The notes beneath the pieces were generated by a model. That model saw nothing but the letters and a program-made list of their open reading frames with translations, was not told the origin of the DNA and searched no databases. From NCBI RefSeq assembly GCF_000970045.1, contig NZ_CP009505.1, positions 806,001 through 870,000 of the forward strand: DNA of 64,000 bases, given 5' to 3'. Below, piece after piece: positions 2,909 to 20,070 of the stretch. Origin of the DNA: Methanosarcina sp. MTP4. Its GTDB lineage: Archaea > Halobacteriota > Methanosarcinia > Methanosarcinales > Methanosarcinaceae. How positions within the stretch are numbered: the stretch's first letter is position 1; each line of letters opens with the position of its first letter. Made by a program: the position numbers and the translations under genes.

Positions 2909-4318
2909 TCACTTCTTTGCTTTCTTCTCGCTGATGATCATCTTGTCGATGGAAATCTTTGCGTTCTTGAATGTCAGCTTGATTCCACCGCCGGATCCAC
3001 CGGAGACCATCGGCATTGCGGGCATCTGGAAGCCTGCTGCAGGCATCATCATTGGGGCTGCTGCAACAGCTTCTTCCTCTTCTTCTTCCTCTTCTTCTTC
3101 CTCTTCTTCTGCTACCCAGTTTGCAACTACGGGGTGGTCCTTCTCCTGCAGGAAGGCTTTCAGGGCGTCGACATCCGGAGCATCTGCTTCGGTTGCGATC
3201 TTGTCGATGATGTCAGCAGGGATGGCTTCTGCAATCTTCTCCTTGAATGTGGAGGGGAGCCAGACAACCCTGTTCCATCCGCCGTCAGCCTGGATGAACT
3301 TGGGGGAGTAGAAGTAGTTCACACCAACACCGAGGAAACCGACGACCTGCTTCCCACCACCGGTCTGACCGGCCATTGTGGAGAACCCGAGTCCGTTGGG
3401 GGACATTCCCTGGAATTCCCTGTTAATCCAGCCGATACCGTCGACTTCAGGGATGTAGAACCCTACAACTTCGAAGCAGCCGCATGATGTGTGCGGGAAT
3501 TCGAAGAAGGAGTGGAGTTTGATCCTGTCAAATTCTCCGCCGGAGAGTTTCTTGGCAATCTCGTTAACTCCGGTGTATTCACCGCTGAGTTCGTCGATTA
3601 CATCTCCCTTTGCCAGCTCGAACTGTGGGCCTTCCGGATCTACCTTTGCGGCAGCGCGGCCGTCAAACCAGTTGATTGCACCACAGAGGGCAATCCTGTC
3701 AGGGGAAACCACACAGACGCTGGTTGGAGCAAACGCCTGGCAGAGGGTGCAGCCGTAGAAGACATCAACGTCTTCATCGTGGAGGTCCTTGGTCCTTGCA
3801 TCTCTGGCTTTGAAGATGTCCATTGCGCCATCAAGCTGCTCCTTGACTGCTGCCTCGTCGGTGTAGAAGGTTGCCTGCATCTTCTCGATGAAGGGAAGTT
3901 CGGTCTTGAAGAGCATCATGACTGCCTGACCGAAGGCCTCAAGGGAGTCGATCTTTCCGGCTGTGTCCTTTGAAACCCTCATCCAGACATCATACCTCTG
4001 GTTCAGGTGCATGATACCCTGGCAGTAGTTCACGAAGTCGTGGACACGCCTTTCAACAACGGATTCAAGGTCAGGTTCAACCAGTTCTCCGCCGATGTTA
4101 AAGACCATTGCCCAGGGGTAGGTCTTGCCCTCTTCCATGTCCTTGATGTCGGGACCGACGATTGTGACCTGGTCGTCTACAATCGCGTCCATCTCTGCTG
4201 ACCGGACAAGTTCCAGACCCATGGACTTGGGACCGCCGAGTTCAACAAACATACCGTCTTTTCTTACTCTTTCACCTTCATACATTGGGGAAATTTCAAA
4301 TGGGAATTCATCTGCCAT
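2909..4318 (-). CDS. cdhC: CODH/ACS beta subunit CdhC, acetyl-CoA synthase (copy 1)
   Basis: Carries the A cluster that makes or breaks the C-C and C-S bonds of acetyl-CoA. 469 aa. Cys190, Cys193, Cys202 and Cys212 (motif GCTLCQAFAPTSVC) are the [4Fe-4S] ligands, and the CGC pair Cys279/Cys281 binds the distal nickel, matching the known archaeal numbering within one residue. The C-terminus has a run of about 14 glutamates, then an Ala/Met-rich hinge and a basic tail; bacterial AcsB instead has extra N-terminal domains. ATG preceded by AGGAGGCGAAG. Differs from copy 2 at nine residues (about 98% identity). Confidence 0.96.
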   Translation of the reverse strand: MADEFPFEISPMYEGERVRKDGMFVELGGPKSMGLELVRSAEMDAIVDDQVTIVGPDIKDMEEGKTYPWAMVFNIGGELVEPDLESVVERRVHDFVNYCQGIMHLNQRYDVWMRVSKDTAGKIDSLEAFGQAVMMLFKTELPFIEKMQATFYTDEAAVKEQLDGAMDIFKARDARTKDLHDEDVDVFYGCTLCQAFAPTSVCVVSPDRIALCGAINWFDGRAAAKVDPEGPQFELAKGDVIDELSGEYTGVNEIAKKLSGGEFDRIKLHSFFEFPHTSCGCFEVVGFYIPEVDGIGWINREFQGMSPNGLGFSTMAGQTGGGKQVVGFLGVGVNYFYSPKFIQADGGWNRVVWLPSTFKEKIAEAIPADIIDKIATEADAPDVDALKAFLQEKDHPVVANWVAEEEEEEEEEEEEEAVAAAPMMMPAAGFQMPAMPMVSGGSGGGIKLTFKNAKISIDKMIISEKKAKK

Positions 4319-4343
4319 TTATGCTTCGCCTCCTAAATCAAAT

Positions 4344-4856
4344 TTATAAGTTCTCGATTAGTTCATCCAGGGCAACGTAGTGGTCTTCCCTGCTTATGTT
4401 CCCGAAGGACATTGTTGCGTTCTGGATGTAGTCTCTACCGATTGAAATTGCTTTCAAGTTGGAGAAGTTCTTAGTTCCGGACAGTACCTGGTTGATGTAG
4501 TACTTCTTGAATTCCAGGACGATAACCATGTCGTAGTTTCCGTTCCCATCAATTCCGGGCCAGTTGGGGTCTGTTAAGTAGAACCCGAGCTGGTGCACAT
4601 TGATGTACTTGGCATCTACGTCCTTGTCCAGGAATCCTACGTGAGAGTGACCTGTGGCAGCGATCGGAAGGTTCGCCTTCTGTGCAATCTTAACTGCACG
4701 GTCCAGAAGTTCGGGCTTAAGGATTCCGGATCCGACCACAAGAAGTGGCCTCTTTGCCTTTTTGATCATCTTGGCTGCCATGTCCGGGTTGATTGCCTTG
4801 GAGGTGGTTACTCCGTAGCTGGTAAAGAGCTTGGTGTTCTTTGTAGTGTCAACCAT
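4344..4856 (-). CDS. cdhB: CODH/ACS epsilon subunit CdhB (copy 1)
   Basis: 170-aa epsilon subunit, Rossmann-like, bound to CdhA in the alpha2epsilon2 CO dehydrogenase unit; thought to help electron transfer to FAD/ferredoxin. It begins two bases after the cdhA stop, and its AAGGAGG ribosome site lies inside the cdhA 3' end, so the two are translationally coupled. It differs from copy 2 at 21 of 170 residues (88% identity), including a cluster around residues 69-74, far more than cdhC or cooC do. Confidence 0.94.
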
Positions 4857-17653: not shown

Positions 17654-17655
17654 TT

Positions 17656-20070
17656 TCAGGCCTCCTTGCAGAGTCTCTTGAGGTTAGTGGGCTGTGCCGA
17701 GACGTCGAACTTGATCTTCGGACCGGAAATGATCTTCTTCTTCTTCCAATCGATTTCCCATCCATGGTCTGCTTCAAGGACCTTGAGGAGGTCTGCACGC
17801 TTGGCAAGCGGGAGGTCGGCTTCGTTCCTGATGAACTTCCACCAGTCTTTCGGCCTTTCCCCGAGGTACTTCTCGTGGAGTTCCATCCAGTGGGTCAGTT
17901 TGATTGACCTTCCCATGCTGTTGTCGGACGGGCGAATGCAGGCCTTTGCCATCATCGGGATTGCTTCCTGCCAGGTCTCTGCGGTTGTCAGGAGGAATTC
18001 CGGTGCTGGTGGGATTGGCATTTCTTCGCCGTTCCTGGCGTCGTAGACTTTCCACTTGGATTCGTCATAGGTCTTAGCTATCAGGGCTCTCCTGTACTTG
18101 GAACTGTGGGCTCCGAGCACTGCGGGGATACCAAGGATGTTACATCCGGTGCCGATGGAAGATGCTTTCTGGGAGAATGCACCCCATGCAAGGCCACAGG
18201 CTCCGACACGGGATAGGGTGTAGTCGGCGATTTCTGCAAGGTTGCCTTCCATTGTCCTGCTGGCGAAGATACCGGCGACCTTCTCGGCTGCTCCGGTGAT
18301 GTGGGCGTTCGAGACACATGACCCGTTGTTGAGAAGTCCACCACATTCGAATCCACCGGGGTACTTCTCGTAGAGGGTCTTGCCGTCTTCGTCCTTGTAC
18401 ATACCGATGTCCATCGCACCACAGCCGGTAACGGCCACGATGTAGTTCCTTTTCAGGAATTCTTCTGCGATGTAGTAGACGTCCTTGGAACCGCCAATGT
18501 AGTTCGGACATCCGATGATCGCGATGATACCCGGGGTTGTACCCATGACAAGGTTCAGACCTTCAGCACGGATTTCTGCGTCGGATACCTGACCTCTGCC
18601 GGCTCTCATCCAGCCCTTCTCCTCGGCAATCAGCTTCTGGGAAGCTTTCTCGATAACACTGAGGATGGGGATTTCCTTCTTACATACCTGTTCGCAGCGG
18701 CGGCAGCCGACACATGCGTCGTGGAGGTCCTCAAGGTACGAGTAGTCTCCTTCCTTGGCGAACTTCATGGCCTCGGGGATGTCCAGCTCAATCGGACATG
18801 CCAGGTAACAGGCACCGCAGTCGGCACACTTGTCGACCCATTCCTTTAACTGCTCGTCACTCGGGATTTCCCTGAAGCCCTCTGCCTTGCGGATCGGGTG
18901 CATTTCCTGGGTCAGCCTTATGGTGAGCTCTCCGAGCTTCTCGTTGTCCAGGATCACACAACCCGGGATCGCTCCGGACTTGAGTTCCTCAATGGTTGCA
19001 TCGACGTCCTGGTTGTCCCTGTTGGGCAGGCCGTACATGATCTTGGCATTGGATGCAATCACAGGGATCTTAAGCTTCTGGGCTTCGGGTACGATGTCTC
19101 CACGGACACACTGTTCGTCAACAACAATGACGTCAGGCATTCCGGAGCGGATAATCTTGAGTTCCTTGGACATGGAACCGATGACCTTGGCGTATGGGGG
19201 TCTCCTGTCAGCTTCCTTGTACCTGGTCAGGTCGATTGCGGTACAGCAGAGCCCGGCGATTTCCATCTTGTCGGTCAGGTCGTTTTCTTCCATGTAGTCC
19301 ATCATGTAAGTGACACCGGCCACATTGTGTCCGATCACACAGAGGAAGGGCTTTTCCTTGTCAATGGTTCCCATGCCGATTTCAACGAGGGGGGCTTCGG
19401 GGTCTGCCTTCGGGAAGTCGAGGGCTGCGATCTGCACAATATCGGAAATTTCCATTCCTACGTGGTCCAGGCTGCCGCTGAAGAGAGCCTTTGAGTCGTA
19501 GTCGATCTCTGAGGATTCCTGCCCTGCGTGGACGGTTGCAAGGAGCTGGGTTAACTGCTCTTCTGTGTGTTCCATTGCAGGCTTGAGTTCCCCGAGGGTC
19601 TTGGGGCTTAACCCGGTTGTGATTGTGATGTTCGGGGTGAGCACGTTGGACTGTCCAAGGTCGAGGGGGACATCTTCGCCAAAGGTTTCGATCAGGTGGT
19701 CAAGCAGGTGGCGGCCGTGGGCTGCGTGGCAGGCAGTACCGGTAATCACACGGAGGAAGAATTCCCTGCCGTTGTGTCCGGCCATGTCAATACCACAGGC
19801 ACCTCTCTTGTTGTTGGAGAGATCACAGGGGCCGTATGTGCAGTAGCAGCACTGGTCACACATAGGGGTGATTACAGGCTCATAACGGTCAAGGAGCACA
19901 AGGTTCCAGTCGTCCCTGTAGGATGCCAGACCCGGGAATGGGGTCGGGCCCATCGGACCGATCTCTTCTGCTTCGGCAGCTTCCTTTGCTGCCCCCACAA
20001 TGTTGTTAATTGTGATCTGAACGGATTCCAGATCTTCTATAGAAAAACTCCCGGTAGTTAGTTTGCTCAT
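17656..20070 (-). CDS. cdhA: CODH/ACS alpha subunit CdhA, CO dehydrogenase (copy 2)
   Basis: 804 aa with the same cluster-binding cysteines as copy 1: N-terminal B/D site, His248, Cys321, the two-cluster ferredoxin insert at 415-463, and Cys550, Cys585 and Cys643. The region around the C cluster reads [19 protein letters not shown] and GGFECGG, close to what I recall for characterised Methanosarcina CdhA. Start placed at ATG 20068-20070, which has AGGAGGTAAAG just upstream and matches copy 1; a longer frame to 20124 would bury that ribosome site. First gene of operon copy 2. Confidence 0.96.

Follow-up and report, generated by a model that had tools for sequence, protein, structure and literature searches.

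Two cdh operons of Methanosarcina sp. MTP4 most likely evolve in concert from cdhC to cdhE, with cdhA and cdhB held apart

The window analysed here, a 64-kb stretch at positions 806001-870000 of the 4.21-Mb single-contig genome of Methanosarcina sp. MTP4, holds two tandem cdhA-cdhB-cdhC-cooC-cdhD-cdhE operons for the carbon monoxide dehydrogenase/acetyl-CoA synthase (CODH/ACS) complex, both complete and both on the minus strand. CdhA and CdhB make up the alpha2epsilon2 CO dehydrogenase, CdhC is the synthase, and CdhD and CdhE form the corrinoid protein. Copy 2 (win2, locus A) spans 20070 down to 11988 and is the upstream operon in the direction of transcription. Copy 1 (win1, locus B) spans 7273 down to -807, crossing the window edge at position 1, and its end was read in the neighbouring stretch L018.

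In copy 2, curated NCBIfam models above cutoff gave the alpha, epsilon, beta, delta and gamma subunits in order: cdhA (17656..20070; TIGR00314 equivalog, 1048 bits), cdhB (17141..17653; TIGR00315, 148.8 bits), cdhC (15706..17115; TIGR00316, 698.4 bits), cdhD (13401..14711; TIGR00381, 495.2 bits) and cdhE (11988..13397; NF003195, 619.5 bits), with a cooC-like P-loop ATPase gene (14894..15655) between cdhC and cdhD. Copy 1 was scanned with NCBIfam for CdhA (4859..7273; TIGR00314, 1042 bits) and CdhB (4344..4856; TIGR00315, 154.4 bits), and with Pfam for CdhC (2909..4318; CdhC and ACS_CODH_B_C) and the cooC-like gene (2097..2858; CbiA and AAA_31, both above cutoff). Its cdhD (606..1913) was assigned by comparison with copy 2, and its cdhE, cut by the window (1..602), is a 469-aa open frame that is whole to -807 in L018. 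The fourth gene gave only sub-cutoff MinD/ParA-type NCBIfam matches in copy 2 and matched no curated CooC model; it is treated here as a putative CooC, with a probable role in nickel insertion. The cdhB-cdhC spacers lie at 4319..4343 in copy 1, directly 3' of the cdhB stop and carrying an AGGAGG-type ribosome site, and at the equivalent junction in copy 2 (17116..17140); both are on the minus strand. CdhA and CdhB both have matches among the chains of solved structures, 3cf4 included, and 24 of the 28 cysteines of copy 1 CdhA are invariant across 7 isoforms. This genome has only two cdhC genes, whose products are 80-83% identical to named Methanosarcina records; cdhC was present in all 14 sampled genera of the family Methanosarcinaceae (75 of the 80 family genomes searched matched).

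The two copies differ unevenly along their length. Synonymous divergence (dS) between them is 0.360 in cdhA and 0.356 in cdhB versus 0.062 in cdhC, 0.041 in cooC, 0.094 in cdhD and 0.109 in the whole of cdhE. Pooled, cdhA-B carry 184.8 synonymous differences over 647.5 sites, against 84.5 over 1103 in cdhC-E (chi-square 135, p 3e-31), which is far from the uniform divergence across six genes that the original prediction, made from the sequence alone, had set as its counter-case. The residue differences counted there were reproduced, with 77 of 804 in CdhA, 21 of 170 in CdhB, 9 of 469 in CdhC and 4 of 253 in CooC; its description of CdhD and the visible CdhE as almost identical holds for CdhD (5 differences, including a gap of one residue) and slightly overstates the likeness of CdhE, which has 14 over the whole gene. 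The noncoding cooC-cdhD spacer is conserved, as had been noted, with 6 mismatches and 1 gap over 183 columns, and the signal of concerted evolution thus extends to noncoding as well as synonymous sites. The two cdhA copies have open frames and are conserved (nonsynonymous divergence, dN, 0.052 against dS 0.360). Within the similar block, the longest identical run of 521 nt was reached in 3 of 2000 shuffles and the variance-to-mean ratio of 4.06 in 0 of 2000, a patchiness beyond chance that fits several tracts of different age. Similarity declines once more in the final ~200 nt of cdhE. Of the 116 differing sites of cdhC-E, copy 1 appears to hold the derived state at 46 and copy 2 at 29, with 41 ambiguous, so no donor could be assigned.

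Gene trees place the two parts of the operon differently. Gene copies were taken as tblastn extents covering 44% or more of the query, some of them partial (half of cdhC in G068, 449 residues of cdhC in G086), and 14 same-genome pairs were counted; outside the count are the G076 pair and a cdhA-only pair of G004 (dS 0.69; clade I with clade III, as defined below). In nucleotide FastTree trees from codon alignments, same-genome copies were sisters in 1 of 14 pairs for cdhA and 2 of 14 for cdhB, and in 12 of 12 for cdhC, 9 of 10 for cooC and 10 of 10 for both cdhD and cdhE, the downstream genes having fewer pairs because some contigs end early. Judged by within-genome pairing, concerted evolution is seen in cdhC-E and not in cdhA-cdhB. 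The window pair itself had support of 0.98 in cdhC, 0.97 in cooC, only 0.75 in cdhD and 0.95 in cdhE, and 100/99.9 when cdhC-E were concatenated. In IQ-TREE, forcing copy 1 or copy 2 of cdhC-E together with G001, a genome of the window's genus, lowered the log likelihood by 163 and 162, respectively, and was rejected by the approximately unbiased (AU) test (p 5.1e-5 and 1.5e-5); forcing the two cdhAB copies of the window together was likewise rejected (log likelihood 122 lower, p 9.8e-5). These results strongly support the predicted homogenisation of cdhC-cdhE, with copies pairing within this genome, and agree that it left out cdhA-cdhB. For the latter genes, the further expectation of pairing with orthologues elsewhere was borne out for copy 1, which pairs with its positional orthologue G001dn, and not for copy 2, whose relatives at locus A carry a different CdhA clade. 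The homogenisation had also been called recent; it postdates the divergence from G001, the closest relative in which both operons were seen, although a dS of 0.04-0.11 is not fresh.

A pattern of this kind could in principle arise with recombination unnecessary, if stronger constraint or codon bias slowed cdhC-E, and dN of cdhC-E is below that of cdhA-B in most within-genome pairs. The step, however, lies at synonymous sites, and the gene trees group copies by genome. In addition, between win1 and G001dn the synonymous differences run in the opposite direction, with 105.5 over 648.7 sites in cdhA-B and 262 over 1101 in cdhC-E, so the within-genome similarity of cdhC-E is not slow evolution. 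Across 16 between-species comparisons, dS of cdhC-E was of the same order as that of cdhA or higher, one low cdhE value excepted. We consider unequal rates refuted by this between-species control, with next to no probability left to them.

The same split recurs in relatives. The tandem pair of G001 has a dS of 0.85 in cdhA and 0.78 in cdhB, with cdhC-E identical. Within genomes of genus group g8, dS in cdhA versus cdhC-E was 1.54 versus 0.02 in G071, 1.44 versus 0.003-0.235 in G074, 0.85 versus 0.025-0.072 in G085, 0.91 versus 0-0.065 in G093 and 0.44 versus 0-0.051 in G082. For the M. acetivorans-like G080, which we take to be M. acetivorans C2A, the values were 1.06 in cdhA, 0.155 in cdhC, 0.006 in cooC, 0.007 in cdhD and 0.003 in cdhE. 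As a separate observation, cooC and the cooC-cdhD spacer of G083 and G084 (L057, L058, L061, L062) form a diverged island in a largely homogenised block.

The two loci have distinct contexts. Locus A is marked by the flank at window positions 20100-26000 and locus B by its long 5' region at 7300-11900, within the inter-operon stretch (7274..11987), whose homologue in relatives lies 5' of their second cdh locus. Each context is common to genomes of genus groups g1, g2 and g8, and this recurrence indicates that the duplication is old and predates the species that show concerted evolution. The tandem order of A operon followed by B operon is found in the window, G001, G093 and G068 (contig C50, with cdhE, the B region and cdhA consecutively), and the flanks of G076 suggest it. 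In seven g8 pairs from assemblies of one or two contigs (G080, G071, G074, G085, G083, G082 and G084) the operons are ~0.3-2.2 Mb apart, with chromosomes taken as circular, and the downstream flank of locus B is variable in the dispersed pairs. Even so, 24 of the 28 cdhC-E gene values of these seven pairs have a dS of at most 0.1, from which it follows that homogenisation also acts between distant sites and, together with the shared contexts, that independent recent duplications are unlikely. A single operon between the A upstream and A downstream flanks in G003 (L024, contig C75) is what would be expected if a tandem pair had collapsed by recombination, and may be an assembly effect.

Taken together, cdhC-E most likely evolve in concert between two old operons by gene conversion, also where the operons are distant from each other. 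We assign a probability of roughly 0.86 to an old duplication that has since evolved in two modes, with the 3' block repeatedly converted and the 5' cdhAB genes held apart as old isoforms. The block from cdhC through cooC and cdhD to cdhE would have been overwritten repeatedly from copy to copy by homologous recombination, leaving most genomes with effectively one version of it, and cdhA-cdhB would have escaped conversion for long enough that old isoform clades could form. Conversion tracts would end where isoform divergence starts, a homology barrier, and occasionally cdhAB itself would be exchanged between loci or species. The isoforms would do different work on a shared ACS/corrinoid core, and two CO dehydrogenases on one synthase core is the best-supported reading of these sequence comparisons.

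Several observations weigh against this account of two modes of evolution. In G084 there is no step at the junction: cdhB is identical and the tract extends ~870 nt upstream into cdhA, which has a dS of 0.16; cooC is still diverged in both G083 (dS 0.91) and G084 (0.31). Elevated values occur inside the block in cdhC of G086 (0.40) and G080 (0.155), and in cdhE of G074 (0.235), where differences fade only close to the stop. These cases in cooC, cdhC and cdhE mean that the block is not always homogenised whole. In G002 (genus g1), cdhB is partly homogenised (dS 0.34) despite CdhA isoforms II and III (cdhA dS 1.30). The low between-species cdhE value comes from G071_b and G078 (1 of the 16 comparisons), at 0.11 against 0.30 in cdhA. 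Perfect identity in G001 (70 contigs) and in cdhD-E of the multi-contig G093 could partly be assembly consensus, and gene conversion is inferred here, no event having been observed directly.

The position of the step was searched from cdhA through 900 nt beyond cdhB in the 12 assessable genomes, the contigs of G023 and G002 stopping at cdhB and being unable to reveal it. Relative to the cdhB stop, the best step was at +9 in G001, -5 in G093, -6 in G071, -3 in G068, -1 in G080, -6 in G085, +21 in G086, -33 in G083, -51 in G082, -84 in G074, -168 in the window (range -198 to +48) and -869 in G084, that is, at most ~170 nt away in 11 of 12 genomes and at most 10 nt away in 6 of 12. When the whole operon was searched, the best single step in the window was at -42 nt from the cdhC start (range -194 to +140), and those of G083 and G084 shifted to the cooC region. 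The step that had been noted near the cdhB-cdhC boundary is therefore real, though soft in this genome. An end effect was considered as the cause of the low cdhAB similarity and was rejected, as similarity fading out towards the limits of homology would do so at both ends alike and the pattern is one-sided. At the other end, where cdhE abuts unrelated flank, 9 of the 10 pairs with a cdhE have no difference in its last 50 nt and the window pair has 5, which shows that the low cdhAB similarity is not simply an end effect; in G074 and G084, cdhE is not homogenised throughout.

With conversion tracts halting at isoform divergence, as proposed above, a junction near the cdhB stop would perpetuate itself, and we infer that it is such an old, self-perpetuating edge. 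A competing idea, which concerns only this edge and leaves the rest of the explanation in place, is that selection against chimeric CdhA-CdhB or CdhB-CdhC junctions, as expected of co-adapted pairs, keeps the edge where it is. The closeness of the step to the cdhB stop in half of the 12 pairs favours it, but species that inherited the edge are not independent cases of it, and its recurrence alone is no proof of selection. The edge is least sharp of all 12 in the window, where the isoforms differ by about 10-11%, and is absent in G084, where 5.5% difference remains to the left of its step and the tract enters cdhB and cdhA. This is the behaviour expected if divergence itself blocks the tract. 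Furthermore, the clade III CdhA of G002 is partnered by a CdhB grouping with clade II, and this combination makes strict CdhA-CdhB co-adaptation doubtful. We regard maintenance of the edge by selection as less likely than the homology barrier, with appreciable weight all the same.

The CdhA sequences fall into clades that were named in this analysis as I (Ia and Ib), II, III and a stand-alone IV. The CdhA protein tree omits CSMAG, fen51, G076_C35, G088 and G017_C153, and the per-gene FastTree trees further omit outgroups, the clade IV pair and collapsed contigs. The g8 cdhA search matched 26 of 30 genomes, the cdhA matches of G089 and G092 being left out, and a contig pattern scan, one pattern of which was a low-complexity peptide, gave 10 loci, with L008, L009, L010 and L013 (fen51, M2HT1A6, CSMAG and Mcoccoides) being used. 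A locus could be assigned to 43 of 49 rows. The 27 rows at locus A comprise 2 of clade Ia, 2 of Ib, 1 basal clade I sequence (window copy 2), 11 of II and 11 of III; the 16 at locus B comprise 5 of Ia, 5 of Ib, 1 basal clade I sequence (G004_a) and 5 of III, with none of II. Isoform and locus are thus associated and not tied, as clades I and III are found at both loci, and these two clades also occur across genera. Nine of the 14 pairs combine two main clades, and those of the window, G085, G083, G084 and G082 do not.

Copy 1 of the window carries a clade Ib CdhA that is 97% identical to that of G001dn, its positional orthologue at locus B. At locus A, the relatives G001up, G003 and G004_b have a clade III CdhA where window copy 2 has clade I, and on this ground cdhAB at the window's locus A has probably been replaced or exchanged. 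The placement of copy 2 CdhA beside clade Ib had support of 85/51 in the protein tree and 100/100 in a smaller DNA tree without G004_a. The expectation that CdhAB stays specialised in each copy is accordingly half right, in that copy 1 keeps the isoform of its locus and copy 2 probably does not. A mosaic origin of copy 2 cdhA, with clade III patches at its 3' end, was considered and rejected, as stricter sites gave a Fisher p of 0.56 and the best break was reached by 270 of 5000 permutations. In five g8 rows, the clade Ib cdhA nests among g1 sequences (four of them also in the DNA tree) and has a dS to win1 of 0.46-0.62, lower than the 0.73-1.6 of cdhC-E in the same rows. This is moderate evidence and suggests that clade Ib cdhAB moved between genera without the core. 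Steps in between-species comparisons fit such transfer without placing an edge at the junction: win1 against G060, G033 and G093_lo gave a broad step, about -496 to +514 around the cdhB stop, so that no edge could be placed there, and against G085_b and G083_b the best step was at +483 and +141.

These signs of mobility, namely clades spread over both loci and several genera, g8 clade Ib cdhA closer to win1 than the accompanying cdhC-E, and a copy 2 isoform unlike that of relatives at locus A, are also what would be seen if each species had recently duplicated the whole operon and then had cdhAB replaced in one copy by a foreign or other isoform, the step coming from the import. That history would require independent duplications to rebuild identical contexts every time, since the same two distinct contexts occur in many species of three genus groups and make the duplication old and shared. 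Import alone also cannot explain why cdhC-E pair within genomes at old, separated loci. As a sole cause, import of cdhAB is largely refuted by the shared loci, and we give it a very small chance. Concerted evolution of cdhC-E, with occasional exchange of cdhAB, remains the preferred reading. An extended version, in which several old CdhAB isoforms form an exchangeable cassette that moves between the two sites and across genera and is plugged into a resident, genome-specific ACS/corrinoid core at the junction near the cdhB stop, stands at about even odds. If it is true, the two "CODH/ACS isoforms" of Methanosarcina would be two CO dehydrogenases with one shared synthase.

Further cdhA genes were seen outside the paired operons. 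The window's genome has another full cdhA at G000:C1:1678877-1681279 (L019:8877-11868), 71% identical and followed by a cdhB; this third cdhAB is a stand-alone, old clade IV form that is also present in G003, lies without cdhC-E in the stretch read and has a PEP (phosphoenolpyruvate) synthase gene ~2 kb upstream. In the M. acetivorans-like genome, the solitary third cdhA (L054, G080:C1:5422500-5436000) differs from it in kind, being a fairly young copy of that genome's clade III cdhA (dS 0.166).

Concerted evolution in methanogens is already known. Long-lasting gene conversion in a methanogenesis complex is described for mtrA-1/mtrA-2 in Methanococcales and Methanomicrobiales (PMC4632066), and as far as the parts of that paper covered here go, the likeness is that homogenisation affects one part and spares the part next to it, which stays different. 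In the mtrA case, the edge falls within a single gene, between the MtrA domain and a transmembrane domain, and came about through shuffling and fusion, whereas the cdh edge lies between two operon genes, four downstream genes are homogenised jointly and the unhomogenised part is a homologous isoform pair. Recurrent concerted evolution in prokaryotes has been described for 26 genes, including mtmB, mtmC, mtbB and mtbC in Methanosarcinales and amo/hao clusters (PMC6053082), and, as here, paralogues are closer within species than to orthologues, often in several members of the same complex or pathway. No cdh gene appears in Tables 1 and 2 of PMC6053082, and the parts of it covered here do not describe a fixed step within an operon. 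Gene conversion in methanogenic archaea is also cited as studied in the covered part of PMC11276520. Among the matches listed from the open-licence literature, judged by title and the start of the abstract and with most subscription papers outside it, there was no report of gene conversion of cdh operons.

Two CODH/ACS isoform operons per genome are known from Cdh1/Cdh2 of M. acetivorans, which the covered parts of PMC4652020, PMC12918732 and PMC4169405 treat as whole isoforms and not as different CO dehydrogenases on a shared core. In acetyl-CoA synthesis and breakdown, both of its operons are regarded as functional (PMC4652020, citing earlier work), and cdh2 is required for optimal growth of M. 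acetivorans on acetate (PMC12918732, citing earlier work), according to the parts of these papers covered here. The cdh operons of M. acetivorans are dispersed and those of the window tandem; the split in G080 is the same as in the window, with cdhA diverged and cooC-cdhD-cdhE near-identical. If mainly cdhAB differs, the question of why acetate-using methanogens keep two operons becomes one about two CO dehydrogenase pairs that share a core. The operons are also a clear example from nature in which one half of an operon evolves in concert and the other half stays apart, and the pattern recurs from genome to genome and at dispersed sites. Trees of cdhC-E would conceal the duplication, and trees using cdhA as a marker would mix isoforms.

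Finally, the long 5' region of locus B, which serves as the marker of that locus, contains several further features. Three head-to-tail 68-nt repeats that are 90-99% alike lie immediately upstream of copy 1 cdhA (7383-7586), and a ~1.13-kb unit, made of 5' region and part of a DUF134 gene, is tandemly duplicated at 7555-9703. Between the two units sits a relic of a cdhA 5' end (8605..8726, minus strand), which is 80-82% identical to both cdhA starts and up to 92% identical to a similar relic in G002. The open DUF134 gene itself, predicted to encode a DNA-binding protein, lies on the plus strand at 10610-11164, divergent to copy 1; its sequence is partly repeated at 8474-8571 and 9606-9703, and relatives have conserved this region at their locus B. 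Speculatively, this gene is a candidate cdh regulator. No Rfam family reached its gathering score within 1-30000, and the sole tRNA gene detected in the window is a tRNA-Arg (ccg) at 43509-43580.

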